Source: Allacma fusca (Eukaryota > Arthropoda > Collembola > Symphypleona > Sminthuridae). From it: a DNA stretch of 64,000 nucleotides. The stretch is taken from NCBI GenBank assembly GCA_947179485.1, contig OX359250.1, positions 2,625,661 through 2,689,660 of the forward strand. The letters run 5' to 3'. The notes under the pieces are model-generated. The model had not been told where the DNA came from. It saw nothing but the letters and a program-made list of their open reading frames with translations, and did not search any database. Made by a program: the position numbers and the translations under genes. Within the stretch, counting starts at the first letter, position 1. Each line of letters opens with the position of its first letter. Positions 13,388 to 61,251 of the stretch are shown one piece after another.

Positions 13388-14356
13388 CATAATTTTGGTG
13401 GTTGTGAGCACCGGGAATGGCATAGGTAGAAGGGCTCTCCAGGATATTATGCGCATATGCCGATCTTGAAAAAAATAATGGATCTGCGTATAAATAAGAC
13501 ATCTTTAAAACGTTCATAATTACAAAGATAAAAGTTAAAAAGAATGAACATTGATTGGTAAAAATTTTCATTAACTCACGCTTATAATTACATGCCATAA
13601 AATTTCCCAAATGACCCAGACAATGATTAGTAAGTCGTCATAGCAGTGATATAAAGATGTGGTTATTATGTGCGCTCGTCCTATCAAAACCACTAACAAA
13701 GTACTGGTGTAATGCAAATGATTGAATTCAACCATTGATTGATCCCGTTAATCATATACATGTGTGTACTGACTGCCACTGGCAATTGGCAATCAGTGCT
13801 TACACTCTGATTTGATAAAGCCATTTTGTTAAATCATATAACATAGTTTCATACTCACATGCCAATATATACGCAATAGTCCCAAGTAGGAAATGCAAAA
13901 TATTCATAGAAAAGTTTTGAAAATCACTGAGGCCGCGAAAAATCCCAACGATTAGCTGAATCCCGAAAAGTACACACACAGTGTAGCCCACCCCCATGTG
14001 GATATACTCCTTACCAAAATAGTGTGTAGTTACTTTTATGGCCGTCAAGTGCGACCAAATCATTACCATTCCCACGAATACAAACAATCCCGCTAGTGAG
14101 ATTAAGCCCACGTGCGCCTGCAAAGCCATTTTTTGTTAACACATAAAATGTATGTAAAATATGGTGTTGTTGCAGTTAATTTTCTTCCACTTCTTACCAC
14201 TTTCCAAATAGGCTGACCAAAAAGAAGTATTTGTCTATAGCTCTCTTTGATGTAACGTGATATAAAAACTGCGTTGGGTATCAGAGCTAACCAGGCCAGT
14301 ATCATAAATACTCCATGAAGTTTAATAAAACGATGTTCATTTGAGTCGTAATCAAC
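13388..14356 (-). CDS. FRRS1-like: FRRS1-like gene, cytochrome b561 exons
   Basis: Three exons: 14356-14198 (phase 0 both ends), 14117-13859 and 13483-13388. The first encodes a membrane helix starting KLHGVFMILAW. The second encodes AHVGLISLAGLFVFVG, then YIHMGVGYTVCVLFG, then ILHFLLGTIAYILA. The four His of KLHG, AHVG, YIHMG and LHFLLG sit where b561 proteins hold their two haems. Exon 14117 has a strong donor (GTGAGT at 13858) after one base of a Tyr codon, and exon 13483 supplies the other two, so the phases agree. Four helices are visible; the last expected helix and the stop must be downstream (below 13387) and I could not find them. Alternative: transcripts reading through the 13858 donor would end at a stop at 13800. 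Confidence 0.85.
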
Positions 14357-17300: not shown

Positions 17301-20300
17301 GATTTTTTTTAGATTCATTTAATTTCTCACAAATAATTCCCCCAAAATTTTAAATTGAACATGCAGTTGGTAAAGTGTCTCTGTAAATTTTCAATCAATT
17401 CAACTACGCCTGTCGAAGAGTTTGTGTTAATATGTTCAGCCAGTAGAATTAACTAATTGTTTTAACTTCAATAGTAATGTACTAAATGGAGAGAGATTAT
17501 ACTTTGAAACCTGAGAGAGTCGTGACTGGTGGATACAACGATTTTTTGTGACAATTTCATATTAGCGCCTTCGTCTCTTTACTGGAAATTCAAAAGTTTG
17601 CAACACTTGTGTGCACGTGTACGCGTACTCGTATATTTAGCATGTGGTACTCGAACTCGAACTCGATAACCCTTATGAGTATTTTTATTGGACTCGTACT
17701 CGTTTGATACTCGTACTCGTAAGTATGTGAAAAATCGTTACCCGTACTCGAAACCCATTTCAAGTATCGAGTATTCACAAAAATTTGACCGTACTCGACT
17801 CGAACTCGTACTCGTACTCGATACTCGCCGGTATACTCGAACTCGATAAGGAGCTATAGTAGCAGCTATATTTCAAAATTTTATAGCTCAATTTTTGCTC
17901 GAAGGTAAATGATATATTATCTCAGGAACGTTAATTTTTTATATACTTAGATGCGAAAAAATATTTTTTTCTTATACTTTGTCAGATATTTATGAAGATC
18001 CGGAAAGTGAGGGTTACTGTTTTTTGTCACGGAGGAGTTCATTCAAAATTTTGAAACCAGAATGAAATAGTTTTTAACATATGCAAGCCAAACACAAATA
18101 GTTAAAATGTTTGTAATATCTTTGGTTTTTCATTTTTTTAAAACTTACTTAAGTCCTGATTTGAGATTCGAATAATCTGGGCACCCTGATCAAAATATGT
18201 ACTTTTCACCAGCATGATTATGACATTGCACACTGCTCCAACGTACCCCAAAAGCGGCACTTCATTTTGGCATAAAATTAAGTTACGAAATATATTATTT
18301 TGAATTCATATTCCGAAATAATATCTTGAAAAAAGCAAGGATGGGAATCGGAATCGGTATCCGAATCGGAATGCATTTTGACATAGGATGTGAGAATTTC
18401 ATTTAGCAATGGAATAATACACGTTGGAATGAATCCCGTTTACTACAGCAAACATGTCCAGGTTGTCGGTATTACATAATTACATTAATAATTAATAGAG
18501 AAAAACATCATTTTAATTTACACTACTTCATAAACAGAAAAAATAGATGATTTTCGGTAGTCAAACAACTTAAAATGAATTTATAATAGACTGACCAATT
18601 CGCCACAAGTTGAACAATTTGTTACTACACATGTCTTATGTACAGTACTTGAAGTGATTAGCTATCTAATGCTGTTTTTAAAAGGTTGCTTGTGTTCTAG
18701 AAACCAAAAAGAGCGAGCATTAGGTGGATAATTTAAGAAAAGCATGTTGCATTTAAAATACAGAATTTTTTATTTGAGTATTTTAAATTACCTACCACGT
18801 TTTGTATTTTTATTTTAGTAATGCAACCTAAAAGCACCAAGGTGTTTTACTTTGTACTTTGCATTTTCCATATTTTATTTCGGGTATTTTTTTCTATATT
18901 GTTATCGAAGACCAACTATTTTGCATAGCTCTGCCAACAACACACCCTATTTCCACGGGTTTTTCATAATTTGAATCCTCTTTGTAATAACTTCAATAAT
19001 ATTACCGTTAAAAAATGTTGGAAATGCACTGGTGCCAAAAGAAAAGGCTATATATTGCAGCGGTTATTATGGCGGTTATATTGAAGAAAACCGAAATTTT
19101 GTACATACCGCCTTCAAGATATTCTCTAACATTCCCTTTAACCCATGAAGAAATTTGACATAGACTATTGTTTGTAAATACGAACTTGTTAACCGGAAAA
19201 AATTCTATTTGAAATCACAAACTCGCGTTTTCTCAAGAGATTATTCTAAAGTTTCAAAAATTCCAGCGCAAAATTTTTCCTACACCCGCATATGGGAAAA
19301 AATTTGCATCGCTTACCCCCGGAACAATGTGGTGGTTACTACAAGAATTCACTTAAATAAATTCAATGAGAATTTCTAAAATAAGATTGTTAGCTACTTC
19401 GGTCAGGACAACTCACACTCACATGGTAACTTGAAGGAACGTGTTTTACTACGATTGTGACATGGAGCAAATTGGAGCAAGTCGATAGTTTGTCGGAACA
19501 ATTCATCTTTCCATGTATAGTAAGATATTACTAAAAGCGTTACCTCATCAACGTCACTGAGCAACATAGGCTTACTGGTTGTTAAAACAATGTCATGATG
19601 CCCAATATTGCCATCAACTCCAATAGCAACGTCTGTATCTGGGTCTGCAGATACCGTCGAGGTTATCGAACTTGTTATGTCCCGCTTCACACGACCTGAA
19701 ACAGAAAGCGGGTTTGTTATTGAACTTATTAAACGACAGCAATAAAGGAGCAAGGAGAAACTTCTTGAGATCTTGAGCCTGTAATCTCTGTTGATATAGA
19801 TTACATTTACTATCAAATCACACCCAGAAAAACCTACTTTTTCGCCTCGGTGTGCCTCGAAAATCGGTGACTTTGTGGCCACTAGCACGATGGATGTAAT
19901 ATGGAACAGTAAGCATATCAAAAATTTGGCCCCCTACTTGAATGAAATTTCGTCGATAAAAGTTGCATAACAGTTTTCCATCAACCACAGTTACATTACA
20001 ACCCATCAACGGACCACTTGAAATTTCAGTGCAAGATGCCTTTGACTACAAAATAATATAATTTTAGCTTGAATACTATGCAGTACAAAAAAGATATGTA
20101 AAATAATTATAAGCCACATACCAGTCGATAATTTTGGTATCCCGAGTTAAAAGACATATAGATTCCAGTATAACCACGGGAGTCAACGACGCATTCAATA
20201 ACGCTATCGTCTCCCTAAAGCATTTGTATGATTTTTGATTACTGATTACAAATCTTGTAGACAGGAACTAAAAACATATTTAAAAAATATTTACCATGTT

Positions 20301-23300
20301 AGAATCAGAAGACAACGCTACAGCCACATAACCATAACCACTAGGAATGTTAGCCATCAATTCAAAGCGGAAGTAATCTCGGATGTAGTCATGGTTTCGA
20401 CTATAAGTTGCCAAGAGACGACAACGGTGGGAATCAGCGCAACCGGGTACGTCCTCCAAGCAGCGCTTGCCACTGAAACACTGGTGATACAATCTTTTTT
20501 CGTCTGGCAAGCCATCAACCTGGCGCGTTTCTGGTAAATATTCTTTGGAACTAAGGTTCAGTTTTTCTAGTTGGGGTAGGCCTCGAAATTTAATACTCTC
20601 GTGTCTCGTTTTCGGAAACAATCTATCAATATCCGATACGCGATCTAATGGCTCTTCATAATTATCTGTGCTTGTGCCGCTTCCTGACGTTTTAACAAAA
20701 CTAAATACCTTGCACAAACATCATATATTTGACATTTATATCGTATTTGTTTTTTAAAAGACAGACGTCTGTACCTGCTAGTGACTTCTTTAAAAATCGA
20801 TGATTGTGAATAGTATACGGAGCGATGAGGAAATTTTTAAAAGAAAATATAGTCAATGCCATTTCATAGCAATTATATTTTTTTTCATCAGCGTAGTCAG
20901 GACGCTTCCATGCGAATTCAGTCCTAAATTCTATTACTGGAGGTAACCGTACAATCCAGAAGATATCATCACGGCCAACAACTCTATGAATTATTGTTAG
21001 CTGGAACAGTATTACTTTTGGGCGTGGTCCATCATCAGCATTCCAGGTCCAGAAAAATGTCTCGTTGTCAAGATTTGAGAAGCCTCTGCTGGTATCTGGT
21101 ACTGTATAAGCCATTCTCTGTAAGATCAATACAAAATTCGACATGGTAATTGGACTAGTAGTTATAAATGTCGCCAAAGGAAAATCCAATTAATTCATAA
21201 CAAAAAATTTATCAAATTATGACCGTCAGACATCCTGTAACGTAATGATGGCTTGAAAATTACCACCAACTCCGTGGTCTGATGTATTCCTCGGGATATA
21301 ATCCCTCGACACGCGAAGATAATCTCTCCCAATAATCTAACATAGTTTTCGTGTTTCAGCTGTTTCTATGGGAACGTTATTTAACCCTTAAATATCCGTA
21401 AAATTGTTTCACGATCCCGGAAGAAAAATTTCTGACGGAAATTATTCCGCCAATTTAATCCCCGTGGAATTAATTCCACCCATGTTGGATATAAAGCCTC
21501 CAGACACATTACCGGGGATAAAATCGCTCTAGACTCAATATCGCGGATATATTCCCGCCATGGCATTTCCCATTTAAAATTCCATACAAAATTTGTATTC
21601 TTGAAAGTCACGGAGTTACCGAAGCCTCATCATTCAAGTTGCAAATTCCAGCAAAAATAGGGTTCCCAGACGTCCCGGAATGCCCGGGACAGTCCCGGAA
21701 TGACAATCGTTGTCCCGTGTCCCGGAAGGGTGTATTCCGGGACACGTAAATGTCCCGGAAACGTCGAGCTCAAACAGTTACGAAAATTATTCGAGATTTT
21801 AAGAGAAAAATAAAATATTTCGATTTAGAGGAGCTCGATTCAAACGAGAGCATCGTGTGCCATCTACATAAAACTAATAAAATCATAAAAATGGGAATAC
21901 AAGCGTAACAAAATCGGTCAAGCATCAGGTAATAATTAAAAAGGTCTAGGTTTGACAATTTTATGTGGGAAGAGGTTATCAATTTCAAAAATTTGCAAGA
22001 TGACCAGACCCCTGCTAAGATTTTACTGTATACAGCAACTTTCTCTGTGAAGTATGAAGAATTTGGGTCTGTTAAATCTCACATGTAAAGTTCCTAAAAA
22101 CCTAGAGAAAGCAGGTGCTGAGACTTAAAAAGTTTAGATTTTTTCAAACCGAATAATCTGGAGACGATTAAAAATTCAATATATTTGCTGTTACAGCGCG
22201 AACAATGCGAACGAAAATTACGGTCGCCAACATTATGTGTTTCAGAAATTCCAGGAAGAAAATCCATCAATTTTTTCTGCTAATTTCAAATATCACATTA
22301 TACTCAACGCTGTGAAAAATCATGCAATAAATTATCAATGGATGTTGAAGGCTTAGTCTTAAAGGTTTTTAGCGAATCTAGCTCGTCTGCGCAGAGACTA
22401 GACTCTTTAAAACAGTTATGTGAATTTGTGGATGTGACTTTCCTTACTTCCAGCATTGGATAGATTCCTTTCTAATAGGTCAGCTTTGAAGTCATATTTT
22501 CTTTTGAAGAAACAAAGTGACTGCCCTGTTGTTATTCGCAAGGTTATATGTCATAACAGCAATCAAGATGCTGCGAAAGTAGAATGCCTACCCGAATGTC
22601 ACCTATTTATTGTGCACAGTATTTTACAATAAATGAATTCGCCCATTTTAATGTTGGAGTGTTATGATTGTACTTCTACGGAAGTTTACGCCATAATGAA
22701 ATTTCTTCTGCAAAGTTGTGTTAGCCGATACAACGATAAATTTTACGGAAGTAGCGCTAATGCAATTCTGAAAACTTAAAAAACACAAAAAGTGCTTTGA
22801 ACAGGAAGCTTTGGATTTTTTGAAATCACTGCAGACCTATTTTAGCTGACATTTTGATTTCAGTGGTACTAATTTTTTGAAATGGAACTACTTAATTTGA
22901 AATCAGAGGAATTCTTAGTATCCAAGGCTTATTTACTAAATATTGCCGTTGCATTCGGTAACTCGGTATTAAATTAAACGAGGACCAGCTATACAATGAA
23001 TTTTGCATACTTCGTCAAACTTGAGTTTTTGCTTGTGATCGGGGATCGTGAGATCGGTCCGTGCAAAGTGGGCTGAGTTTTTTTAAGAAAGATCAATGTC
23101 TGGAACTACTCAAGCTTGTATCGTTCGTGATATTAATTCCTGTTAGCAACGATTTTGCAGAAAGTAATTTCAGCCTAGTGAAGAAAGTTTGGACAGCCGA
23201 GAGAAACTTAATGTCAACAAAACTTGTGAAGGCAGAGCTTCAAGTCAGGCTTAATGTGCACTTTTCATGTTGTGAATTGGTTTTTTTAACAAACCGGAGA

Positions 23301-26300: not shown

Positions 26301-29300
26301 ATTTGAATGGGTACCTAAATCCCGGTTCCAACCATAACGGGAACGGGAACACTTAAGGGGAGTACCCATTAAGTGGGAACAGGAACTTTTGTACCCATAC
26401 GACCACTGTCCTGGAATTTGCAACTTTAATGGTAAGGTTTCGGTAACTCTGCGACTTCCAAGAATTCATTGAGATTTTTAATTTTAAAAAAATTAAGGAT
26501 GAGCTGATATTCAAGTGGGTCTCGTCACACGCGAGCAGAGAACACAGACGCTGGCGTAATTACCAGCGGCGGGACTACAGTAAGCGGAATTATCACGATC
26601 GGGATTAAAACGGCAGAATTGTTTTCACGAGATTAATTTCATCAGGAATGTCGATCGCCGGAAGCTTGACACGGCGTTTAGTGTAATGCTGTAACCAGCT
26701 CCAAGATTACGAAGAGGTAGAATAGAAATGCTTAAACTAAATAACGATTAATTCACAGTACCCCATGCTTGCGTGGAGAAGCAGATTCTTCGGGACAAAA
26801 CGCGGAAACATGACGTCGGCCTTGAGTTTTTTGCCTGTAATCAGGGCAAGGCTGATGGATAAAATGACCGGTTGGTACTTCATCCTCATTCAGTGCTAGC
26901 ACTACCAAATATTCAAATGTGAACGAGGTGTTCCGTTTAACCAACAAGCTCAAGGTGTTGACATTACTGTCCCCTTCGATTTCATAAATGTGAAGTCTGA
27001 CTGGTGGAGGTTTCGTTTGAGGTTTCCCTTTTCCAATTATGTCGAACTTAACTCCCTTACAAATTGCGTTGAGCTTAACGAGATTAGGTTTCGTGACGGA
27101 AGTCGCTGGAGTTAACCCTGTCGTAAGTTCACTGGAACTACTTTCTCCCACGCTGCTTTCACTATGGTCCGCATGTGAAGATGTCCCAGGGTCTACCGTT
27201 GAGGATTCTTCTGCAAAATTAGAATTTGCACGAATTGTTAAAAAGTCAGAAATTAAAATCAACACATACGCATTAACAATTACATGTTTGTCTTCCTCTA
27301 TCCCATATAAGCAGGTTTTTAAAAATCTCGATTAACCCTTTTGATACAGAGTTAATAGAACTTAACCAAGCACCTTTGAGGCTTGTTTTCTATTCTAAAG
27401 GCAAAATTTAGATTGCAAAAGTATTCAGAGACATCCATATTTTGAATATCTCGCCATTTAACTGCGTGCTGAAGTAATTTTTGTTATATAGCAATTAAAT
27501 TCTTTTAATATGAGCTCTTACATGAGATGGGAAAGGATAATGAGCAAAACAAAGAGCTTAACATAACCAGAAAATAGTGGTAAGGTCCGAAAGCAGGCTC
27601 TTTAAATATGAACGGCCCGAACCCAGTGTTTGAAAAGATCCAACCACGAACTTGACATGACCATGAATACTCAAGTACCTTTTTCCAGATTACCGCGAAC
27701 TTAAAATTTTCAGTGATTCTTGATGGTGACTAGTTCGGAATTTCAAGTAATTCTTGGATTACTTGGCCATGTATATACTAATATACTTGACCAAGTACTA
27801 CGGTGCAAGTAAAGTATTTATTCATGAACGCTAACTTGACTTGAGGTACGAAATCATGATCAAGACTAGTGTTTCTGAACGGTACCAAAACATGAACTCG
27901 ACCCGACTCGTTTTCCCGAACCGAAAAAAATCCCATTTCTGTTCCCAAAACCGGAAAATTAAACCGGTTCCCGAACCGGAAGAAAATGTATAGGATTCAT
28001 TTTTATGGAAGTCAAAATTGTGTCGCTTTTCAAATTATAGTTGACAAATGCTTCGCAAATGCATGTTTCGCGTTTTCATCCAAAACGCGAAACAAACACT
28101 TCCCGAAAGTTTTCGGTTTTGATTTATGTACCCGAAACCGGACCGAATTTTAACGGTTTTTTAAACCGTTGACCCGAAACCGGACCGAATTTTAACGGTT
28201 CTTTAAACCGTTGACCCGAAACCGGACCGAATTTTAACGGTTCTTTAAACCGTTGACCCGAAACCGGACCGAATTTTAACGGTTCTTTAAACCGTTGACC
28301 CGAAACCGGACCGAATTTTAACGGTTCTTCAAACCGTTGACCCGAAACCGAACCGAAACCTGGGGAATTCCCGGTACTGAACAGAAACACTAATCAAGAC
28401 CACGAAATGCCGGAACTTGACTCGAAATGTTCATGACTTTTAAATGAATTACTTTACCTGAACCCGAACGCTATCTTGACTTGAAATGCTCGTGGTCTAC
28501 TTGTACTTGTGCGCAGCTCTGTTCTACACAACCAATATAATCACATTTGTACCTGATTCTCAGGGTATTGTATACAATCTCAAACAGTTTCTGAATAAAT
28601 ATATTTTTGTGGATCAGCGCATCCAGCAAACTATCAAAATTCAATTCATCTGTAGTCAAAACACCAATACACATCCTTTTGGTGTTTGGATAACCGTGCG
28701 CAGTGTAAGTACAATACCGAGAAAAACGGTTTATTTTTGAGATCTCGGCAAGAAATTCTCTATTGAAATGACAGAATTGAAAATTAACACGCTAGCTTAA
28801 ATGAGCTAGGAAGAAGACAAAATTCGTACTAAATATCTACGTAAATTAATAAATAGAGAAAAAATGATAATACAATGTGATGTTTTTTCTTTATACCTGT
28901 ATAGCTTTCCACAGATGACAAAAATTGGCGATTCATGTTTATATTCATACGACTAGAAATGTAAAACCTCCTTCTGGAATCCTCGGTAACCTTTTCTTTA
29001 TAGCAATGGTAGGTCTCATTTCCCAAACTGTACGAAGTTTTTAATTCTGCTGCCTTCATAACATTAATTACAGGCGAATCAATTCCAGCCCAAAATTCCT
29101 TAGGTTTAGCCACATTCCCTGTTTCACGAACAATGAGGGCTTTAAATTGAACACTCGTAGGACGAGGTCCGTCTTTAGGACTCCAAAACCAAAATATTGA
29201 CTCTTCGTCTAGTTTTACGTAATTTTTGTTCTTATTCGGGATTATGTAAACGAACCGAGTGTTCTAAGAATTGCAAAATTAGCATCGACAAATGAATGGG

Positions 29301-38300: not shown

Positions 38301-41300
38301 TTCTACTTAATGTACAAACGCAAGCTACTGGGGCCACCCTGTAGCAATACTTCTGATCGCATTATATATTAAAATCCACAGCGCTAAATTGCGACTGTAA
38401 TAAATCGTAAAAATTGCCTTTGCTGTACAAAAAATAATGAACTTTTCTATGAAACCAATTATAAAAGGCTCGTTTTCTCGGACTCGGACAGAAAAAAAAC
38501 TGAATGAGATGATGAAAATTGATGAAATTTTTATCGACAACGCCTACAGAGTCAAACTGACGAAACCTAAAAAACCGAGAGCAGTACAAGTGAGCTTTGC
38601 TAAATTGTCTGAGCAAGAAGCAGTTTGAATACAAAACTTATACTGAGGCGGAAAAATATCCTAGTCTACATTATCACCTTACCTGTGTGGAAGACGCAGA
38701 ACATGCGAGAGTAAACCGAGAAGAGAAAAGAAATCACGTCTAAGATCAAACTGCATGAGACAACGGTCTATACCCTTGTAACGACAAGCATCTATAAATA
38801 ATATCGGGTACTGGAATGTATGCACTAGGACATACTTCCAGTGCTTGAATTCTTTTATTACTGACATGAAACCAATTTTTTTATGCATCTCAGAAACCGG
38901 GACCTGTGACAAAATTCACTTGAAAAACTAATATTTTAAATAACAATGACTTCAGCTTTGTAAAGTCAACACACAGAAGCAAAAGGTCCAGCTGTAGGTT
39001 ATTCGTAGGCATGAAATATAAATTAGAAAGTATTTGCAACGTATAATTTTCGGAGGAAAATGGCTTTCTAAATTAAATCTCGTAAAATTGAATTCCTGGT
39101 CAATTCCCCGAGAGAGACACAATTCGTGTAACTCCAAACATAAGAGGGTAAATCTTTTTAAGTAACGTTATTACGTGATATGAACGCTAGTATTGTCACA
39201 AAAACGTATTCGAATCTTTGCAAGGTAGCTTTGCATAACTGGATGACTTGCGTGGACGTTGACATTGCTCACAGTTTGGAAAAACATACCGTCCCGGGGC
39301 CATCCAAACAAACGGTCAGTCATGATTACCCTCACACGACTATCTCTACGGCCATGGACTTACTCAAAAAATTCAAAGAGCAAGGGAAGACCTAACAAAA
39401 CTTGAAGCAGATCAGTTTTCATTAAGAAATTTATTTAAACAAGCGTGAAACAATGGGGACATCCCAAAACAGGTAGAAAGAATTAAAATCAGATAAATAT
39501 TCTATAAAGCCATCGTGGAGCTGTAACACAATCCAATTCCTCAACAAGACTAAACGTAATTACATACCTACTCCTCCCAGGTAGACCAAAACCACAGTAA
39601 TGAACAACTGCCAAGGCCGATATTGTCCACCTAAAAACTAGGCGACCCCATATGACAGAAAATACAACAAGTAATAATTTATTGGAATTCAGAAACTTGG
39701 TTTAATCTACAACATAAGGACTTTGCAATTGTAACATTTTTATTAACTGGACATTAATCCTAATGACATTTAAATTATGGAGGAAATCGCAATGGAGTAT
39801 CCAGGGGAAAATATGTGTAGCATATAAAACCAAGCAAGACAAAATCTCCTGGTGTAGTACCACATAAGTAACCATAAACCATACATCTCTGCTCGTTATC
39901 ATTAATGAGTCGTCTAGAGATTTTATCTGCGATTTTTAAATTTGTTCACAACTTGATGCATTAGAAAGGATTTTTGTTTCATTGTTTGCAGCCTTAATGT
40001 GGCTTCAAGCTCAAGCCAAGGACCTTCTTCTTACATACATTTGCACTCCTAAGCTTGGTCAAATTTATTTGAATTTAATTCACTGTAACATTCATTAAAC
40101 TGTACGGATGATATTGGAGCCGCCGAAAAGAGATCTTAATAAAATAATAACAGTAAATTCTGTAGAAGGGACTCGTCCGCGCAAGATCAAAAGTGGAGTT
40201 CAATCCATTTTTTTCAATCCACCCGTTTTTGATTTTTCTGGTAGGAATTACTGTGTGATTAAATTATAGGGACAAAAATGGGTTGTGTTTATTTTGGGAA
40301 TGTCACCCTGGGGTAATAAATGAATCCTTCATCCTCGAGGATCTTTGGACAACGACATCAGATAATCGACTCGTACGCGCTAATAATTATTCAGGTTTAG
40401 GAAATGGAAGATATGAACAATTACAGTGGTAGATTCGAGATGCTCCTGCGGTCATATGCGGAAAGATTAAATACCAAATTTGGAACGCTGAAGGAAGACT
40501 AACGTCTTCCTAATATGCTTTTTCCAGATCCGCAATAAAATTGCCTTTGCTCTGCTATTGTGCTAGATCGTGGAGATAGGGGCAAAGGTTATTGAACAAC
40601 ATGTAATACAGATATATATAACTTACTTAACTCAGGATACAAGTCCTCCAGAAATTCTTGGCTCATATGGATAATTTCAGACTGATCTTTCTCTAACACA
40701 AAGTTCCGCTCTGATTGTGCGTGGACTATATCCTTATAGCAATAGTATTTCTCTGGGAGAAAGTCGCTTTGTTTCGTAAATGGAATATTTTGTCTGAACT
40801 GTATTACCGGGGATGATACAACCCAGTAAATCCACTCCGTCGAAGAAGCGTGCCTTGCATTAATTGCGGTTACTTTGAATTGTATTTTTGAAGGTCGGGT
40901 GCCCTCTTTAGGATTCCACGTCCAAAAGAACGACTCTTCATTTAGTGTACTGTATCCACCAAATATGTCGGGTAGCATGTAAGCAAATCGCCCGCTCTAT
41001 TTACAGTTTAATAACAAAGTCTTATTACACAATTGTGGGAATGACAAAAGAGACAATGCTGTGACCGTGACCAGTGGTGGAATCATAAAATGTTTTATGT
41101 TTTATCCTGACACTAAGTCAGGCTTTGAAATTTTTATTTTACTGCAACTGCATTGTCACGTCACTATTATTTCCTTAAGCAGGATCCAGGTAACCCAACC
41201 GTAAATTAAGGTAACCATCTTGGTATTGCCTATTTCAGAAACGAATTTCAACCACGAGGACTAGTTTAACAAAACAAAATGTGTCTCTGCGTTACAACCG

Positions 41301-50300: not shown

Positions 50301-52835
50301 GATACAGTCATTATATCCTTAAAGTATGTTATTACAGTATCGCCGCTATTTCTTACGATATTGTTGCGTCACAACAATTCATGCCGTTGGTATGCCGACT
50401 GTATACTCAATAATTTCATAACTTAATCCGTATTATTACGGCTGTTTAGAACGTTAATAATATTTCCCAAAGGACTCCATCCCTAGTTTGTTTCCTTGGT
50501 AATCTACATAAATACATGCTGCATTCGCATTCATGTATTGCCTACTACAACGACCAACGGATTTGTCTTTCAATGATTGAATAAAACAATTTATGCGGTC
50601 ACTTTGTCACACACAGCAGAATTATCGTTGGCTTAAGGATATTGGGAATGCAGACAGCGGGAATAATGCTCGCTGGATTATTACAAGCGGGAATGCCTTG
50701 GATTGGCTATTAACTCCGTATTAATACCCCATATTTCCTGATGAGTGTTTCGTCACTAGTGCATCTCTGGTTAGTTTGACGTCGACCATGTGCTTTTATG
50801 TTCGGATCTGGACAAGGTATATGCCCAAAGTGACCTACTGGAATGCCACGTTCGTTTAAGGCAATAATAACCAAGTAAGTCACCGGACCCGACTCAGGTT
50901 TTCGATCTAGAACTATTGATAATGTATTTGCATTTGAGTCCCCCATGATTTCAAACAATTTGAGATTAACAGGCGGATCTTCCAGGTTAGGCTCGCCTTG
51001 AACCTCGAAGTGTTTAATTTGGTTGCACACGACACCGTGTCGTACCAAGGTTGGTACACCCTGTACAGGTGCTATTGTTGCCCATTCCGGGGCAGATGTA
51101 CTACTCCTTAGTTCTTCTGAAGTTGAACTAATATATGTGAATTTTTCAGAAGCCGTGGGAACTTCTACAGTGAATAACTCCGTTGAAGTTACCAACGCAG
51201 TCCCTACATTTCCAGGAACAAAACATCTATTAGTTTTAAAAGCAAAGCTTCATGCGAAACTTCAAGAAATTATTAAGATTCGTCATACTTATTTCAGGGT
51301 ATAAATCCTCAAGAAACTCGTCCTTCATTAGTAAATCCGACTGATTCTTAGCCTTAGCAAAATTTCGATTTGAATGTTCGGTAACGGTATTTGCATAGCA
51401 GGGAAAACTCCCTGAAGGGAAGTCATCTGCAACATTCAACTTAACAACTTGCTTGAATTCTGTTACTGAAGATCTCACAATCCAGTACTTATACCGTTCT
51501 CTGTCAGTTGTTTGATGAACAATGGTCACAGTAAACTGAATTTTGTGTGGACGAGAGCCATCTTTTGGGTTCCACGTCCAAAAGAAAGATTCCTTCTCTA
51601 AGGAAGAAGTTCCGAGTCTTGGGATCGTGTAAGCATACCGCGTGGACTGCACAAATGAAATAAATGGAGTATATCAATGATCAAATGTAAATTGTATACT
51701 GTACATAATTACATGGTTCGTGCAAACAGAATCTACTGAACGAACGGCCATCTTACCCCGTACTTCTCTTTGAGCATTGGATCATGTGTACAATCGTGAC
51801 GTAACTGTCTTTCGCCTTGCATTTTAGCAATGGGATCGGGACAAGCTTTGTTTCCAAAATGACCAACGGGGATGCCTTCTTCGTTTAAGGCGATTATTGT
51901 TAAAAATTGATACTGTTCAGCATCAGCCTCATGCTCCGCCACTACTGATAAAGTGTTTTCGTCCCCTTTACCATGCATTTCGTATATTTTGAGGGAAATC
52001 GGTGGCAGTGAATCTTGCGGATCGCCTTGAACTTCAAAATGCTTAGTTGCACCACACAACACTTTCTGTCTGGCAAGTGTTGGAACTCCATGAACTGAAG
52101 CAACGGTGGGCCATGGAGTAGGAGCGGATTCCTTTTTTCTGGTTTGTTCTGATGTGGTTGGTTCTGTTGTTGTAGGTTCTGTTGTGGTTGGTTCTGTTGT
52201 TGTAGGTTCTGTTGTGGTTGGTTCTGTTGTTGTAGGTTCTGTTGTGGTTGGTTCTGTTGTTGTAGGTTCTGTTGTGGTTGGTTCTGTTGTTGTAGGTTCT
52301 GTTGTTGTAGGTTCTGTTGTGGTTGGTTCTGTTGTGGTTGGTTCTGTTGTGGTTGGTTCAGTTGTTGTAGGTTCTGTTGTGGTTGGTTCTGTTGTTGTAG
52401 GTTCTGTTGTGGTTGGTTCTGTTGTTGTAGGTTCTGTTGTGGTTGGTTCTGTTGTGGTTGGTTCTGTTGTTGTAGGTTCTGTTGTGGTTGGTTCTGTTGT
52501 TGTAGGTTCTGTTGTGGTTGGTTCTGTTGTTGTAGGTTCTGTTGTGGTTGGTTCTGTTGTTGTAGGTTCTGTTGTTGTAGGTTCTGTTGTGGTTGGTTCT
52601 GTAGGAGGTTCTGTAGAAGGTTCTGTTGTTGTAGGTTCTGTAGAAGGTTCTGTTGTGGTTGGTTCTGTAGGAGGTTCTGTAGAAGGTTCTGTTGTAGTTG
52701 GTTCTGTAAAAGGTTCTTTAGACGATTCTATTGTGGAAGGTTCTATGGAAGTTTCTATTGCAGGAGGTTCCGTGGACGTTTCTATTGCAGGAGGTTCCGT
52801 GGACGTTTCTGCAGAAGATTCTATTGTGGAAGATC
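13388..52835 (-). CDS. FRRS1-like: FRRS1-like giant protein: 7 Reeler-like domains + DOMON + cytochrome b561
   Basis: I join 21 exons (transcription runs high to low): 52835-51757, 51646-51289, 51203-50728, 40996-40627, 36250-35736, 35596-35230, 35007-34556, 34452-34080, 33007-32490, 32373-32007, 29769-29342, 29263-28897, 27210-26762, 21117-20775, 20683-20295, 20214-20122, 20045-19838, 19695-19544, 14356-14198, 14117-13859, 13483-13388. All junctions are GT-AG and every length fits the phase pattern. Total 7,818 nt, 2,606 codons. Vertebrate FRRS1 has one Reeler, one DOMON and one b561 domain of about 600 residues; it is a membrane ferric reductase moving electrons across a bilayer through b561 haems (family knowledge). 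Here the extracellular side carries seven Reeler-like domains with Ser/Thr-rich linkers. The first exon opens at an acceptor (ATTCTACAG), so the signal peptide and perhaps more domains lie upstream. The last exon ends at a donor (GTAAGT), so the tail is also missing. Confidence 0.85.
15012..15193. mobile_element. 182-bp MITE, GGAGGGAAT motif, 8-bp target duplication
   Basis: Ends CGTGTTCGGATA and TATCCTAACACC are inverted repeats with two mismatches and extend into shared ATTCCCTCCGA. The exact 8-bp duplication TAATTCTT lies at 15004-15011 and 15194-15201. The interior is a chain of 12-15 bp phrases built on ATTCCCTCCG on the left half and its complement CGGAGGGAAT on the right half, meeting near 15100, so the element is almost one hairpin. 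Confidence 0.88.
16096..18188. mobile_element. hAT element, 2.1 kb, defective
   Basis: Terminal inverted repeats CAGGGTGCCCAGA and TCTGGGCACCCTG with an exact 8-bp target duplication ATCAAAAT (16088-16095 and 18189-18196). CCTGATTTG-type motifs repeat next to both ends. An open stretch at 16724-16951 (plus), with KEVNIFDAIPVDFIQVV, resembles the region of hAT transposases where a substrate-binding Asp lies, but no full frame remains. A younger MITE (17016-17858) is nested inside. Confidence 0.9.
17016..17858. mobile_element. hAT-type MITE nested in the 16096-18188 element, TACTCG motif
   Basis: Ends TATAGCTCCTTATTGAGT and ACTCGATAAGGAGCTATA are inverted repeats with one mismatch. The exact 8-bp target duplication GTAGCAGC lies at 17008-17015 and 17859-17866. 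The outer about 250 bp on both sides are filled with TACTCG and CTCGAACTCG; the middle is ordinary AT-rich DNA. It interrupts the older element, so it inserted later. Confidence 0.9.
19544..20683 (-). CDS. FRRS1-like: FRRS1-like gene, DOMON-domain exons
   Basis: Four exons: 20683-20295, 20214-20122, 20045-19838, 19695-19544. The DOMON core is split at SSDSNM / GDDSVIECV, the signature 'D-x-M-G-D-D-S-V-x-E-C' of FRRS1-type DOMON domains. It is followed by SFNSGYQNYRL, CNFYRRNF and FDMLTVPYYIHRASG. A Cys-rich entry (C-x4-C-x6-C-x5-C) precedes it and probably forms disulfides. The last exon ends TTSKPMLLSDVDE and joins in phase 0 to the first b561 helix, as in FRRS1. DOMON domains of this class lie on the non-cytosolic side and bind haem or pass electrons to b561 (family knowledge). 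Phases between all four exons agree. The donor of the third exon (GTAGGT at 19837) is slightly off consensus. Confidence 0.87.
20775..27210 (-). CDS. FRRS1-like: FRRS1-like gene, Reeler-like unit 7 (next to DOMON)
   Basis: Two exons, 27210-26762 and 21117-20775, separated by a 5.6 kb intron. The first gives a Ser/Thr-rich linker of about 50 residues, then ICKGVKFDI, YEIEGDSNVNTLSLL, YLVVLALNEDEVPTGHF and CPD. The second gives MAYTVPDTS, ETFFWTWNADDGPRPKVILF, FWIV and NCYEMAL. The pattern 'ALN-x-G-x-x-x-GHF ... C ... F-x-W-T-W-N-P ... Y-W' parallels the Reeler 'GF-x-x-A ... G-x-F ... C ... F-x-W-x-A-P ... F-x-A-x-V'. It is the most divergent of the seven units and lacks the LYPEL end of most others; its exon stops at LAG with donor GTACAG. 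It is placed where FRRS1 carries its only Reeler domain. Confidence 0.78.
21245..21657. repeat. GGGAAT/CCGC-motif repeat, copy 1
   Basis: Ends near AACTCCGTGG (21267) and CACGGAGTT (21609) are short inverted repeats. The interior chains phrases such as ATTCCGCC, TTAATCCCCG and ATATTCCCGCCATGG. The right end, read as complement, matches 26410-26465 closely (shared GGAATTTGCAACTT, TTCGGTAACTC and TTCAAGAAT), so two copies of the family lie 4.8 kb apart in opposite orientation inside one intron. Confidence 0.6.
21658..23416 (+). mobile_element. hAT element with dead transposase, TCCCGGAA motif
   Basis: Ends TAGGGTTCCCAG and CTGGGAACCCTA bound 1,759 bp. The flanks AGCAAAAA (left) and (A)TGCAAAA (right) look like an aged 8-bp duplication. 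The left 110 bp repeat TCCCGGAATG and GTCCCGGAA; a single copy sits at the right end. The interior holds a decayed transposase on the plus strand. Lies in the intron of Reeler unit 7, opposite to the host gene. Confidence 0.8.
22130..23372 (+). pseudogene. hAT transposase pseudogene
   Basis: Broken plus-strand frames with hAT-family content. Around 22330-22440 there is a segment reading VEGLVLKVFSESSSSAQRLD, then LKQLCEFVDV, typical of hAT transposases related to BED-zinc-finger proteins. 23061-23372 holds the C-terminal dimerisation region: LLKLVSFVILIPVSNDFAES, then NFSLVKKVWTAERNLMS, then LVKAELQVRLN. Stops and frame changes interrupt the middle, so no active enzyme can be made. Confidence 0.82.
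23545..24422. mobile_element. hAT-type MITE, GTTCCG motif
   Basis: Ends TAGAGCTTCC and GGAAGCTCTA bound 878 bp, with an exact 8-bp target duplication CTTCAAAC at 23537-23544 and 24423-24430. GTTCCG, TTCCGTTCC and CGGAAC fill the first 170 and last 270 bp. It has inserted in an older region whose own repeated phrase is TCAAACTCGAG. Confidence 0.9.
24431..25640. repeat. TTGAACTTGA/CTCGAGTTTCAA motif region
   Basis: Phrases such as AAACTCGAGT, GAAACTTGAG and TTTGAACTTGACCATAATG recur, densest at 25500-25625 where a 30-31 bp unit repeats four to five times. Similar phrases lie left of the GTTCCG MITE (23465-23540), so the block probably started near 23460 and was split by that MITE. No clear inverted ends. 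24640-24960 is C-rich with a (CA)n run and matches nothing I know. Confidence 0.55.
25641..25885. repeat. 40-bp tandem repeat, six copies
   Basis: TATTATATTTGTAAAATAAT recurs at 25681, 25721, 25761, 25801 and 25841, an exact 40-bp period, with another copy before. Copies differ at two or three positions (AACATT versus AATATT). Confidence 0.92.
26140..26400. repeat. GGGAACGGGAAC/GGGTACC motif patch
   Basis: GGGAACGGGAAC, GGGTACC, GTACCCAT and GGGTCC cluster here, like the filling of the 12494-13335 MITE but with a different phrase. No matching inverted ends found; probably a truncated or degraded hAT MITE in the intron of Reeler unit 7. Confidence 0.45.
26405..26700. repeat. GGGAAT/CGGGATT-motif repeat, copy 2
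   Basis: Begins with the segment shared with the copy ending near 21657 (inverse orientation). From 26540 it is a chain of 12-14 bp phrases of form GCGGGATTAnnnnC, for example GCGGGACTACAGT, GCGGAATTATCAC and TCGGGATTAAAAC. The same phrase style appears at 50600-50705 next to another exon end of the same gene. Confidence 0.55.
27867..28392. mobile_element. hAT-type MITE, CCCGAAACCGG motif with internal 42-bp array
   Basis: Ends TAGTGTTTCTGAACGGTACC and GGTACTGAACAGAAACACTA bound 526 bp; the exact 8-bp duplication ATCAAGAC lies at 27859-27866 and 28393-28400. 28129-28345 is a 42-bp tandem array (about five copies) with ACCCGAAACCGG and AACGGTTCTTTAAACCGTT, the latter a palindrome. It sits inside an older CTTGACTTGAA-motif region (about 27640-28500), in the intron between Reeler units 6 and 7. 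Confidence 0.9.
28897..29769 (-). CDS. FRRS1-like: FRRS1-like gene, Reeler-like unit 6
   Basis: Exons 29769-29342 and 29263-28897, a 78-base intron. The first gives a short Thr-rich linker, then VACRAADIF, YEIFGDQNADVLSVLF, ISIVALNQDGIPTGHFGNKA, CQDANP, RC and KKYG. The second gives NTRFVYIIP, ESIFWFWSPKDGPRP, EFW, and HCYKEK, ending ESYTG. It groups with unit 4 (both have SIFWxW, VRETG and a TG end) rather than with units 1-3 and 5. Four Cys are kept, as in all units. The linker is shorter than in units 1, 3 and 5. Confidence 0.8.
29770..30613. other. Intron sequence, nothing recognised
   Basis: Intron between Reeler units 5 and 6 (whole intron 29770-32006). The part up to 30613 is AT-rich, with no supportable open frame or element end. 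Confidence 0.5.
30614..31857. mobile_element. Foldback (long inverted repeat) element, left arm interrupted
   Basis: Two arms of roughly 300-550 bp are inverted copies around a centre near 31557. A perfect 45-bp inverted match lies at 31475-31519 and 31596-31640, containing GGTAACACCCATTTTAAG. Outward the match continues imperfectly through TTACTCCAAGCACC, GGTGTATTTA and GCTTATA, and on to TTTTACAATCC and TTTCCTCCTT near both ends. The left arm is split at 30691-31354 by a MITE; the right arm keeps the empty site. Confidence 0.82.
30691..31354. mobile_element. MITE with long TIRs, GCAAAATGATCTA motif, nested in the foldback
   Basis: Inverted ends share ATCGTCGGTGAAGAGGCAAA and continue over 60 bp with few mismatches (CTAGGTGCAT, ATTAGAATCAAAATGATCTA). 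Inside both ends the phrase GCAAAATGATCTAGATGC is repeated about three times each. The borders lie in TATATA runs, consistent with a TA target duplication (Tc1/mariner type), though the run hides the exact limit. Confidence 0.85.
32007..33007 (-). CDS. FRRS1-like: FRRS1-like gene, Reeler-like unit 5
   Basis: Exons 33007-32490 and 32373-32007 with a 116-base intron. The first opens with a 55-residue Ser/Thr/Glu linker, then GVPTLVQQGVMCNQVKHFEV, FEIMGDGNANTLAIL, YLIIIALNEEGTPVGHFGHH, CSDPN, RC and KYG. The second gives PTRFAYLIPDVAAG, ETFFWTWNPVDGHRP, YWITPSPVIEF, PCYKNEL and EFLEDLYPEL. It starts by completing a GAT codon begun in unit 4 (G|AT) and ends at donor GTAAGT in phase 1. Both exons are intact. 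Linker composition suggests heavy O-glycosylation (inference). Confidence 0.82.
33093..33961. mobile_element. MITE, GGATACGGATATCC motif
   Basis: Ends AAGGTTCTCAACGGAT and ATCTGTTGAGAACCTT are inverted repeats with one mismatch and bound 869 bp. Dense GGATACGGAT, ATATCCG and CGGATCGGAT fill the first 110 and last 250 bp. I found no 8-bp duplication in the flanks (CCTCTCTC versus ACCGTAGT), so hAT membership rests on similarity of design. It lies in the intron between Reeler units 4 and 5. Confidence 0.82.
34080..35007 (-). CDS. FRRS1-like: FRRS1-like gene, Reeler-like unit 4
   Basis: Exons 35007-34556 and 34452-34080. The first has a Thr-rich linker, then VVCTTLDYF, YEIMGDSNADVLSVVL, VSVTALNQNGVPAGHFGNKA, CPDPN, ECTDDP and RKYG. 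The second gives HTRYASIIIP, ESIFWYWNAKDGDRP, VVRETG, EYWIQVRSPVV and SCYVNKL, ending LLALTG. It pairs with unit 6 by sequence. The first exon's donor (GTTCGA at 34555) is weak after GT, although the phase and the homologous position in all other units support it. Its GVPTL entry phrase is missing, as in units 6 and 7. Confidence 0.78.
35230..36250 (-). CDS. FRRS1-like: FRRS1-like gene, Reeler-like unit 3
   Basis: Exons 36250-35736 and 35596-35230. The first opens with a 60-residue Ser/Thr linker, then GVPTLVRQGVVCNQIKHFEV, YEIMGDSNSNTLSI, YLVIVALNENGITVGHFENR, CPDPN, QCTND and KKYG. The second gives NTRFAYMIPDIASG, ESFFWTWNPKEGHPP, YWIVPSPVIEL, LCYANIL and EFVGDLYPEL. Exon ends fit the common phase plan (2-base start, phase-0 split, phase-1 end). 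It belongs to the main subgroup with units 1, 2 and 5. Confidence 0.82.
36251..38429. other. Intron, with a TGAACGTGAA-motif region
   Basis: Part of the 4.4 kb intron of the FRRS1-like gene (36251-40626). From 36940 to 37180 and 37640 to 37760 the phrases GAACGTGAATGAAC, GTTCATTC and GAACTGAGTG recur, the same design as the motif-filled MITEs, but I could not fix inverted ends. 36300-36900 and 37770-38400 show nothing else. Confidence 0.45.
38430..40150 (+). pseudogene. Decayed LINE copy in an intron
   Basis: Plus-strand pieces of a non-LTR retrotransposon. 38437-38628 and the following shifted frame resemble a LINE ORF1 end (NAYRVKLTKPKKPRAVQVSF). Around 38840-38890 IFLCISET resembles an endonuclease start. 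Near 39780 EEIAMEYPGENM matches the endonuclease segment MEFPGESM of the full LINE at 54765-59882. The tail 40100-40145 (ACGGATGATAT, CCGAAAAGAGATC, TTAATAAA) matches that LINE's 3' end. Many stops and deletions. Confidence 0.6.
40627..51203 (-). CDS. FRRS1-like: FRRS1-like gene, Reeler-like unit 2 (split by a 9.7 kb intron)
   Basis: Exons 51203-50728 and 40996-40627. The first has a Ser/Thr linker, then GVPTLVRHGVVCNQIKHFEV, FEIMGDSNANTLSIVL, YLVIIALNERGIPVGHFGH, CPDPN, RCTSD and RKYG. The second gives SGRFAYMLPDIFGG, ESFFWTWNPKEGTRP, IYWVVSSPVIQF, YCYKDIV and EFLEDLYPEL. The first is joined to unit 1 by an 85-base intron (51204-51288) with agreeing phase (A|GG). The second is 9.7 kb away, behind at least six transposons. 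In the other units except 7 this intron is under 150 bases, so it has grown by insertion. Both halves are intact and in phase, so splicing is probably maintained. Confidence 0.8.
42256..42840. mobile_element. MITE with about 150-bp inverted repeats
   Basis: The left arm from 42256 (AAGTTTACTGTAATAGCTCC) and the right arm ending at 42840 are inverted copies over about 150 bp, matching at TAAAAATTGGT, CAATATTTCA, ATTTTTGTCA and TATGAGAGGTCAAA. The left arm contains AGGTCAAAGGTCA (42377-42389), a perfect DR1 nuclear-receptor half-site pair. Target duplication not resolved. Nested in the 41493-43749 element. Confidence 0.72.
43157..43533. mobile_element. hAT-type MITE, AGGGATTTT motif, copy 1
   Basis: Ends CAGGGGTCGGATTT and AAATCCGACCCCTG are perfect inverted repeats; exact 8-bp target duplication CTGCTGGA at 43149-43156 and 43534-43541. 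The interior repeats CAGGGATTTTTAAA and GCAGGGA phrases. The same family has a shorter copy at 60014-60210. Nested in the 41493-43749 element, so younger than it. Confidence 0.92.
43816..44538. mobile_element. Tc1/pogo-type MITE, TA target duplication, copy 1
   Basis: Ends CAGTAAAACCTGTATATAAT and its complement bound 723 bp, flanked by TA (43814-43815, 44539-44540). The outer 80 bp on each side repeat CACTATA/TATAGTGG-type phrases. The TIR start CAGTAAAACCT resembles pogo/Tigger elements. The second copy at 49099-49932 is in the opposite orientation: the end that reads CCTAGGGACGCC is on the left here and on the right there. Confidence 0.9.
44541..46633. other. Intron sequence, nothing recognised
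   Basis: Within the 9.7 kb intron of Reeler unit 2. AT-rich, no supportable open frame, repeat or element end seen. Confidence 0.5.
46634..47880. repeat. GGATTGGATTAAGG-motif region with 43-bp tandem units
   Basis: 46660-46920 holds about six units of roughly 43 bp with TTGGATTGGATTAAGGGATT, separated by AT-rich spacers ending CGATCAC. A second cluster (GGATTAGGATTG, GGATTGAGGATTAAGGATT) lies at 47690-47880. Two motif-rich ends around an ordinary AT-rich core is the same layout as the verified MITEs, but inverted ends and a target duplication were not found. Confidence 0.6.
47885..48882. mobile_element. Putative hAT-type MITE, GTCCCGTCCC motif, left end unresolved
   Basis: GTCCCGTCCCCG phrases fill 47892-48135 and 48625-48882 around an AT-rich core. 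The right end GGCAGAAGCTCTG looks like a terminus (reverse complement begins CAGAGCTTCTG), but I could not find its partner or a repeat of the following CTGGAGAA on the left. The left end may be deleted or merged with the GGATTGG block. Open frames here on both strands are shadows of the motif. Confidence 0.6.
49099..49932. mobile_element. Tc1/pogo-type MITE, copy 2
   Basis: Same 22-bp TIR as copy 1, bounded by TA (49097-49098, 49933-49934), 834 bp, inverted relative to copy 1. An open stretch at 49253-49480 crosses the centre but shows no transposase motif. Lies in the unit 2 intron. Confidence 0.9.
51289..52835 (-). CDS. FRRS1-like: FRRS1-like gene, mucin-like segment and Reeler-like unit 1
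   Basis: Exons 52835-51757 and 51646-51289. The first is 1,079 nt. About 250 residues of Thr/Glu/Pro-rich sequence, mainly a five-residue repeat E-P-T-T-T, run in frame into GVPTLARQKVLCGATKHFEV, YEMHGKGDENTLSVV, LTIIALNEEGIPVGHFGNKA, CPDP, DCTHDP and KYG. The second gives STRYAYTIPRLG, ESFFWTWNPKDGSRP, YWIVRSSVTEF, PCYANTV and EFLEDLYPEI. The frame of the repeat was checked into the folded domain and is continuous. The exon begins at an acceptor, so upstream exons lie beyond 52835, but none was recognised before the window end. The long Thr-rich part is probably an O-glycosylated stalk (inference). Confidence 0.82.
52136..52720 (-). repeat. 15-bp coding minisatellite (EPTTT repeat)
   Basis: About 35-40 units of 15 bp (plus strand GGTTCTGTTGTGGTT, with GTTGTA and GGAGGTTCTGTAGAA variants) stay in multiples of three without a break, coding Glu-Pro-Thr-Thr-Thr on the minus strand. 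Units alternate GTGGTTGGT and GTTGTAGGT in a regular 30-bp higher order, a sign of recent expansion. Unit number is likely to vary between individuals. Confidence 0.9.
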
Positions 52836-54291: not shown

Positions 54292-55394
54292 CCAAATACA
54301 TAATTTTTCGCGGATTGTATCGTATGTCTTGATTGGAGACGTAGTTTAGTTTACGAATAGAAGAGTCAAGTGTAGATTTTTTGGTTACTCGTAGGGGAAA
54401 CATTATTGGTTTGGGATGGGAATCTAATTGACAAAATGCTTTACGGATCCCAGAGATATTCTTCCAACTGAAGGGTAGCAATGAAAGAGTTTTGATAGCA
54501 ACAACGCTAATACTAATATGCTGATACTGACATATTTGGATACGTGTTGGGGGCTGAAAAATATCGAGTAGCATTGCCTAGCTGACTTCAGGCTTTAGAG
54601 TACTCCAATTGGTTCAGGGGTTCAAAAGTTTTCCATTCCATATCTTTCTTCATTGAAGGGTCCCGAAAGTAGTGTTTTAGCGATTTTTACGCTTAAGGCA
54701 CTTTTGAAAGGATTTACAAAAACTTGCTAGTCAAAGTAAAACCATCTTCATAAAAACAAAACCAGGAGGCTCAAAAGAATTGCAAGCATTCGTATGCTTT
54801 CCACTTTTTGGTCCTTGGTTGGCGCTTCGTTTGAACAACACTTACTTTTGAAGTTCTTGGCAAAAATTTGAAATAATTTCATAAAATTCGGAGGCCTAAC
54901 TTTGCAAACTCGCTCAATTGTTACTATCCGCGATAAAGTGTACCTAAACGCATCCAGGAGACTAATAAGACGGAGGAATTGATAGAAGCTAAAGTTTTAC
55001 ACAGTCAATTTAGTAAAGCCAGCCCATTCCAACTTATTTGATGTACACATACTCATACTGGCAAATACACAGGAGTCACGTAATTATATTGTTTTTCTCC
55101 TGACGCTGGATTGACTCCTCTTACTGGCTCCCGGAAGCACCAGGCTGTTATTGGCAACTGTAAATTGGCAAAAATTAGCAAATGTTGTAGGTGCTTTCCG
55201 GGCCAATCCTCAGGCGAGTGATACCTTTATTAATATTATTTACTCTCAGTCACTCCAAATTCGTCATAGTTACTATTATTCGCATCTTTTCTGGAAATAT
55301 TCCTCCTGTTGTCAACATTTGCTACATAACTTGCTCCAGGACTTTTAACTCTTCCTAGGAAATCAAAATTACAAGCTCACCGGGACAAGAGGAT

Positions 55395-60218: not shown

Positions 60219-61251
60219 TATCTAATTTTCAACAATGTTGCAAAAATTCTACCCTGGACCTCAGCTCGTAAATCAATGGGTGGGCTTCACTGGTTCAATT
60301 GTTACCAGAACTTCAAATTTAAGGCTTCAAATAACTGCCAAATCTTTTCATGTTTTAACGGAGGTTTCTGAGAGCTTCTAAATGCTCTTGCTTGGAAGTC
60401 CGTTGCCCCAGTGTATTTTATTGTTACCCGGTATTTTACATATTTTAAAGTTTCAAAATTGCACACAACAAGATTCACCAAACCTAACCATCGTAACAAA
60501 AAAATAATGAAGACTATTGTGGTTATCAATGGGCTATATGTATATAACGAGATTTGGATTGTTTTCAAAAATTATTTTTGTTTATACTAAAATTTATAGA
60601 AAAGTGTATATGTAGTAAAAGTTAGCTTAGCTGTTGGGAGCATTTTGAATACTCTGTTAATTTTGGCCTACGTTCCGGATCTCTCGAAATATTTCGTTTT
60701 GACTGACGATTATTTTCTTAACAGAATTTGATACTATTGACTTTTTACCGAATTTCTATCAATTTCATTACTGCAGTTATGATCATTTCGATAAATTGCA
60801 TACGAATGGAATAAAATATTAAAATACGAAAAATCATTCACAAATCCTCTCCCTTGAAGTAGGGTTCTCAATTGGTGCGGGCCTGTCACCCTTACAAACT
60901 CCGAAAATTACTCAATCATCCTGTCAATGGTTCTTTTTACGTAAAATAATATCTAGCTGGTAATTCCTAGGTTTTTTCAGCAGTGATTTTCAAATAATTG
61001 TTGATTTCTTTCTGGAGCTGTTCTTTTTCAACAGGGATGTTTTTATTTATTAACATTTTTTGCTGCAGGGAGGGATGCACGACTATGTTACTGTCTTTCT
61101 TACCAGAATTTCAAGATGAAATCTAACACTTGTATTGATTCCTCCCAGTAATCTAATAAACAAATAAAATTTAAACAATCAATCAGATTGACTATTTATC
61201 GACTAGTGGAATAGAACATAGGACGCATTTTAATACATACTACGCGTTAAC
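60219..61251. other. No gene seen
   Basis: AT-rich, no supportable open frame. Short GCAGGGAGGGAT and CAACAGGGATG phrases near 61030-61080 recall the AGGGATTTT MITE family, without ends. Confidence 0.45.

Follow-up and report, generated by a model that had tools for sequence, protein, structure and literature searches.

The probable giant gene and its exons

The window, meaning the whole 64,000-nucleotide stretch of DNA that was analysed (C9:2625661-2689660), belongs to the springtail Allacma fusca and contains the 3′ part of what is probably one giant gene. The full gene model, traced through the genome sequence, consists of 39 exons and 5,380 codons spread over 118,482 bases, from C9:2750278 to C9:2631797. 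There is no internal stop across the 5,380 codons, and all 38 introns are of the GT-AG type. The predicted full-length product, with a calculated mass of about 590 kDa before modification, is composed of a signal-like start, 15 units of two exons each, a DOMON domain and a six-helix cytochrome b561 (b561) domain. Units 1–8 are located upstream of the window on the same strand, in the flanking genome sequence; they were traced after a genome search with the related A. fusca protein P0002 had shown unit exons beyond the window. Profiles of the first (A) and second (B) exon, built from the seven units of the window, gave 30 matches at E ≤ 0.1 in 154 kb, comprising 15 A and 15 B exons, all 30 on the minus strand; at the same threshold and over the same 154 kb, no unit exon was matched on the plus strand and no broken copies were detected. 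The exons of the window are the following (window coordinates):

51757..52835, minus strand: exon A9, Thr/Pro/Glu-rich linker and first half of unit 9 (unit 1 of an earlier, sequence-only reading)
51289..51646, minus strand: exon B9, second half of unit 9
50728..51203, minus strand: exon A10, first half of unit 10
40627..40996, minus strand: exon B10, second half of unit 10
35736..36250, minus strand: exon A11; the B10/A11 junction is also present in NCBI protein P0004
35230..35596, minus strand: exon B11; the A11/B11 junction is also present in P0004
34556..35007, minus strand: exon A12, first half of unit 12
34080..34452, minus strand: exon B12; the A12/B12 junction is also present in P0004
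32490..33007, minus strand: exon A13; the B12/A13 junction is also present in P0004
32007..32373, minus strand: exon B13; the A13/B13 junction is also present in P0004
29342..29769, minus strand: exon A14, with a phase-compatible alternative acceptor at 29805
28897..29263, minus strand: exon B14, second half of unit 14
26762..27210, minus strand: exon A15, first half of unit 15
20775..21117, minus strand: exon B15 (unit 7 of the earlier reading); the B15/D1 junction is also present in P0001
20295..20683, minus strand: exon D1, linker and first half of DOMON, ending in SSDSNM of the SXDXXMGXD signature
20122..20214, minus strand: exon D2, DOMON, starting with GDDSVIEC
19838..20045, minus strand: exon D3, DOMON
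19544..19695, minus strand: exon D4, insertion with RVKR and the presumed DOMON heme His (codon 5109)
14198..14356, minus strand: exon C1, b561 helix with His 1
13859..14117, minus strand: exon C2, b561 helices with His 2–4; end corrected from 13804 by tblastn with P0002
13580..13692, minus strand: exon C3, helix absent from the earlier model, placed by tblastn with P0002
13388..13483, minus strand: exon C4, with the end of the earlier model's last exon in a different frame, by tblastn with P0002
6137..6274, minus strand: exon C5, last helix and stop codon, placed by tblastn with P0002

Acceptors of A exons other than A14 also have alternatives inside the linkers. The sequence-only reading of the window had joined 21 minus-strand exons into 2,606 codons. 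All 21 could be rebuilt, with GT-AG introns, matching phases and no stop, giving 2,617 codons. The 3′ end of that reading had to be replaced: its last exon was in an incorrect frame, and the exon at 13692-13580 had been overlooked. The present 3′ end, with the stop at window position 6137, was placed by tblastn alignment of P0002. Position 52835, the 5′ limit of that reading, is an internal acceptor and not the gene start; eight units lie further upstream. The exon-by-exon rebuild reproduced the succession of seven two-exon units, DOMON and b561 inside the window, and the earlier estimate of at least seven units agrees with the modelled total of 15.

The start of the model is exon A1. It alone among the A exons opens with an ATG, immediately preceded by an in-frame stop, and also has a strong hydrophobic stretch; the latter, located by hydropathy only, covers residues 22–43 and is preceded by a long basic start. 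A weaker possible start is found at unit 4, where a Met in the open frame of A4 precedes a stretch of moderate hydrophobicity. The earlier expectation of a single gene had been set against the appearance of new signal peptides at later units; there is one good start, at unit 1, and the weaker one at unit 4.

Intron phases are regular throughout the model: the 14 boundaries between units and the step into DOMON are in phase 1, and the 15 introns inside the units are in phase 0. Letter for letter, 12 of the 38 junctions are found in three partial NCBI A. fusca proteins, in which unit 1 is joined to unit 2 (P0005), parts of units 10 to 13 are joined to each other (P0004) and unit 15 is joined to DOMON (P0001); these proteins are annotations and not transcripts, and P0004 and P0005 also splice out parts of units. 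The other 26 junctions, including 16 from B2/A3 to A10/B10, have no counterpart in the partial NCBI proteins. In protein searches, the predicted C-terminus and the units retrieved partial A. fusca proteins at 100% identity; the matches listed comprise five different proteins, four from A. fusca and one from a JGI metagenome. These searches ran outside the full-length size class of about 3,000–9,400 residues, and one of them scored the 8,000 candidates with the most shared words, so that low-complexity linkers may have crowded out relatives.

Several other elements are located in the window:

55359-59693, plus strand: LINE-type retrotransposon, antisense in the B8/A9 intron; its first frame (323 residues) has no Pfam match and its second frame (1,121 residues) contains endonuclease and reverse transcriptase domains
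61251-61979: minisatellite with a 37-base unit, copies about 98–99% identical
28127-28393, minus strand: short tandem repeat in the B14/A15 intron, reading FGPVSGQRFKEPLK
1-1220, minus strand: frame of 80 residues with an Arg/Gly-rich stretch, adjoining a frame of 344 residues that has no Pfam match

The DOMON and cytochrome b561 domains

The C-terminal part of the protein has the features of the FRRS1/CG8399 type, as the sequence-only reading had proposed. The DOMON domain (PF03351) scores 34.1 bits in the corrected tail, against a Pfam cut-off of 32.7 (34.4 bits with the first 3′-end model), and contains the signature SXDXXMGXD as SSDSNMGDD at codons 4970–4978. The b561 domain (PF03188, cut-off 23 bits) scores 26.1 bits when its 156-residue core is scanned alone and 23.7 bits in the tail of the first, uncorrected 3′-end model; it is absent from the Pfam listing when the corrected tail of 534 or 254 residues is scanned whole. 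The related proteins P0002 and P0003 pass the b561 threshold when scanned whole. The miss in the whole tail is probably an effect of scan filters on a long hydrophobic sequence, and it leaves our assessment unchanged, given that the core and both relatives score above the threshold and that no heme residue is lost. The four heme His of b561, read from the sequence, are residues 5140, 5181, 5219 and 5254; Arg at H1+20 and Gln at H3+14 are present as well, and hydropathy analysis indicates six hydrophobic segments. No solved structure was matched by the sequence of the b561 part. The presumed DOMON heme His (codon 5109), assigned by spacing only, precedes b561 His 1 by 31 residues; in the fly, the corresponding distance is 30 residues by the numbering of the paper (PMC10691727). 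That source reports the DOMON signature SXDXXMGXD for CG8399 proteins, and it also names the b561 heme His, four in number, together with the Arg and Gln at the two positions given above.

The 5,380 residues contain a single furin-like motif R-X-[KR]-R, namely RVKR at codons 5077–5080 (window about 19682-19693). It is part of an insertion that separates the DOMON Met from the presumed heme His. In P0002 and P0003 the motif is likewise present once, at the equivalent site in DOMON, that of P0002 being RGKR. In a third relative, a gene with three units, RGKR is present in an open frame at the corresponding place, in a part of the gene where exon borders are not solved. The presence of RXKR at one place in four of four members suggests a function; the ectodomain may be cut there, and then held or shed.

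The repeated unit

Each unit is about 230 residues long and is encoded by two exons, with an inner intron in phase 0 and outer introns in phase 1. Two alignments of 13 unit halves contain ten invariant columns in each half, including four Cys in all. Metal binding by the units was considered and set aside, as the His of the VGHF motif is not invariant.

The units had been described as Reeler-like, an assignment that a profile comparison sustains and the Pfam thresholds do not. The Pfam scans covered the 18 units of the two multi-unit genes, corresponding to 17 different sequences (units 7 and 8, U7 and U8, are the same). None of the 17 reaches the cut-off of the Reeler family (PF02014, 21 bits), and none is above cut-off for any other Pfam family. 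Reeler is listed below the cut-off for six of the 17, five of the six being near-copies. The best score, 19.4 bits against 21, belongs to unit 3 (E = 0.0017); this value is weak taken alone, because Herpes_glycop, a surely unrelated family, reaches E = 0.0024 in the same scans, below its own cut-off, and outscores Reeler in several of the near-copies. Scans of single exons gave no Reeler match, and Reeler is likewise absent from the Pfam listing for P0002 scanned whole.

When a profile of the units was compared with a profile of the Reeler domains of the same genome, the two were collinear over 128 columns, with a score of 30.3 and P = 0.00056, five of the seven genome Reelers having been extended with a second exon whose stretches were picked by eye for a canonical FW segment, which may favour the Reeler match. 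The maximum was 17.9 in 100 column shuffles, none of which reached 30.3, and 13.8 with a reversed profile. Before completion with the second exon, the comparison gave P = 0.064. A search of the genome-Reeler profile against 19 unit sequences placed none inside the inclusion threshold (best E = 0.073). A further ~60 residues, with the fourth invariant Cys, lie behind the Reeler-matching part of the unit, and the inner intron is positioned differently from that in the true Reelers of the genome. The structure model of the unit has a mean pLDDT of 45.8, from an input alignment with misplaced rows, and the matches of a fold search with this model span other parts. The name 'Reeler-like' is used here because the units score below the Pfam cut-off and match in the profile comparison; the unit is plausibly a divergent Reeler-like domain with about 60 extra residues.

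The 14 linkers amount to 1,344 residues in total, with a Ser+Thr content of 31–52%. The longest have 420 and 251 residues; the latter, encoded by exon A9 in the window, consists mostly of a 15-base minisatellite that keeps the reading frame. There are 22 N-glycosylation sequons in the 5,380 residues. The few N-sequons and the Ser/Thr-rich linkers indicate that any glycosylation would be mainly O-linked, and linkers and units together look like an O-glycosylated, mucin-like stalk.

Related genes and known proteins

Three further loci of A. fusca are relevant to the comparison:

C9:4948226-4954931: P0002, annotated as 'Ferric-chelate reductase 1', one unit, 807 residues
C9:42462282-42470277, plus strand: partly assembled gene with three units, DOMON and b561
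C10:3568366-3599056: four exons with a genuine Reeler, a possible signal peptide before each, in a cluster with DOMON and b561 exons of the conventional CG8399 type

P0002 shares the unit type with the giant gene (65% and 55% identity to the halves of unit 1) and, at the junctions solved, A/B, D1/D2, D2/D3 and D3/D4, the intron phases; it differs in having one unit rather than 15 and 807 residues rather than 5,380. The three-unit gene resembles the giant gene in its Thr-rich linkers (including one long repeat linker), DOMON, b561 and RGKR; two of its three units are near-copies of each other.

CYBDOM/FRRS1 proteins normally carry one Reeler domain, and we know of no agreed function for this outer domain of the electron-transfer proteins concerned. 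Insect CG8399 and mammalian SDR2 (FRRS1), of the CYBDOM class, have in common with the giant gene the order of signal or signal-like start, Reeler or Reeler-like domain, DOMON and b561, as well as SXDXXMGXD, the b561 heme His (four) and the Arg (H1+20) and Gln (H3+14) residues; the giant gene differs in its 15 units, its Ser/Thr-rich linkers, a unit scoring below the Pfam Reeler cut-off and the RXKR insertion in DOMON (PMC10691727, in part). The available part of the same source describes CYBDOM proteins as containing reeler, DOMON(s) and cytb561, with the plural for DOMON only and no mention of a repeated reeler; it reports doubled DOMON domains in 19 of 888 insect hits and states that what CG8399 and SDR2 do in vivo is not known (PMC10691727). 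Single-domain Reeler proteins of insects are small and secreted and lack DOMON and b561, having only the Reeler domain in common with the Reeler-like units of the giant gene; according to the part of the source available, their reeler mediates the nodulation response to bacteria (PMC3616906). Tandem Reeler units were not described in the titles and abstract beginnings among the matches listed for the open literature, a scope outside which most subscription papers fall, and exact phrases for tandem Reelers had no match in the same literature. None of five annotation terms sought was present in PMC9630974.

Proposed growth of the array

A tree of 19 unit sequences, rooted for drawing only, groups unit 1 with the unit of P0002 (100/100), the units of the three-unit gene with each other (95/94) and units 2–15 on one side of a branch (100/99). 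We infer from these groupings that the array grew inside this gene, independently of the gain of units in the three-unit gene. Units 4–9 are near-copies, 94–100% identical; 14 of the 15 U4–U9 pairs have dN/dS ratios of 0.09–0.60, from small counts, with synonymous sites differing more. The codons of U7 and U8 are identical. These two units are located in a direct repeat of 5.08 kb (C9:2693457-2698539 for U8 and C9:2700882-2705948 for U7; 99.57% identity, offset 7,425); this repeat could have come from a recent duplication or could be a duplicate made in the assembly. The other U4–U9 pairs have 4–23 nucleotide differences in 226 codons. An ancestral one-unit gene similar to P0002 would have gained its further units as the two-exon module was duplicated again and again. 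Since the phase of the module is equal at both ends, an added copy leaves the reading frame intact, and splicing could also skip copies.

Alternative explanations

The exon chain might be divided between at least two adjacent genes, such as one for a secreted protein with units 1–3 and one for a membrane protein with units 4–15, or it might also give short secreted forms from transcripts that end after a B exon; we regard these two variants together as improbable. The Met and moderately hydrophobic stretch of A4 would suit a second start, although this stretch is directly before a phase-1 acceptor and may for that reason be a pyrimidine tract. Several outer introns are long, those of 20.8, 15.3 and 10.6 kb separating blocks of exons, and no independent protein among the partial NCBI proteins joins units 2 to 10; every B exon, however, ends in a phase-1 donor that fits the next A exon, and the genome search with P0002, in which 56 of 92 candidates were scored, placed no DOMON or b561 exon between units. 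A separate gene for each unit was set aside, a start being found only at unit 1 and perhaps at unit 4. It is distinctly improbable that part of the array is an artefact of assembly, with the near-identical units representing haplotype copies and the true count being lower. U7 and U8, codon-identical inside their 99.57% identical 5.08-kb repeat, are the units to which this would apply above all, but the remaining U4–U9 pairs differ by their 4–23 nucleotides, the linkers before U4, U5, U7 and U9 are of unlike length (71, 420, 75 and 251 residues), and the diverged units 1–3 and 10–15 alone make nine. An artefactual origin of the entire array was set aside.

The units might also not be Reelers, but a different β-sandwich domain that replaced the Reeler in a springtail subfamily, which we consider unlikely. 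Such a replacement would account for the absence of any of the 17 unit sequences above the Pfam Reeler cut-off, for P = 0.064 without the second Reeler exon and the failure of the genome-Reeler profile to match the units inside its threshold, for the different place of the inner intron, and for the ~60 residues and one invariant Cys outside the Reeler match. It is opposed by the place of the units in the protein, which is that of the Reeler, by the collinear profile match, which covers almost all of the Reeler (P = 0.00056; score 30.3, with a maximum of 17.9 after shuffling and 13.8 on reversal) and by the Pfam Reeler E-value of unit 3 (0.0017). The preferred reading is that the locus is probably one giant CYBDOM (CG8399/SDR2/FRRS1) gene in which 15 divergent Reeler-like units, arisen by module duplication, form a mucin-like stalk.

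Proposed function and significance

As a CYBDOM protein, the product would be expected to take electrons from cytosolic ascorbate with its b561 domain and to hand them over to the DOMON heme, from which they would reach an acceptor outside the cell, ferric iron or another. The same path, from ascorbate via b561 and the DOMON heme to an outside acceptor, has been proposed for CG8399 (PMC10691727, in the part available). The array of units would act as an O-glycosylated stalk, keeping a single type of binding domain, in many copies, at a distance from the membrane; its most likely role would be multivalent, in attaching to or capturing a microbe, matrix or iron-bearing ligand. The multivalent binding stalk is proposed by analogy with the part that insect Reeler proteins play in nodulation (PMC3616906). 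The RXKR site could serve in the release or holding of the ectodomain.

A more specific version, which is doubtful at present, is a furin-nicked redox receptor with a variable array, the length and repertoire of which would change through recombination or exon skipping and the ectodomain of which would be controlled by the RXKR site. If true, the mucin-like ectodomain of about 5,000 residues would tie surface recognition to transmembrane electron transfer. The versions with one, three and fifteen units, together with conventional Reelers in one species, would form a natural dose series for the function of the domain. In A. fusca, a membrane redox protein appears to have become a mucin-like surface molecule of giant size as a two-exon module with symmetric phases was duplicated, and this may have taken place twice in one genome.
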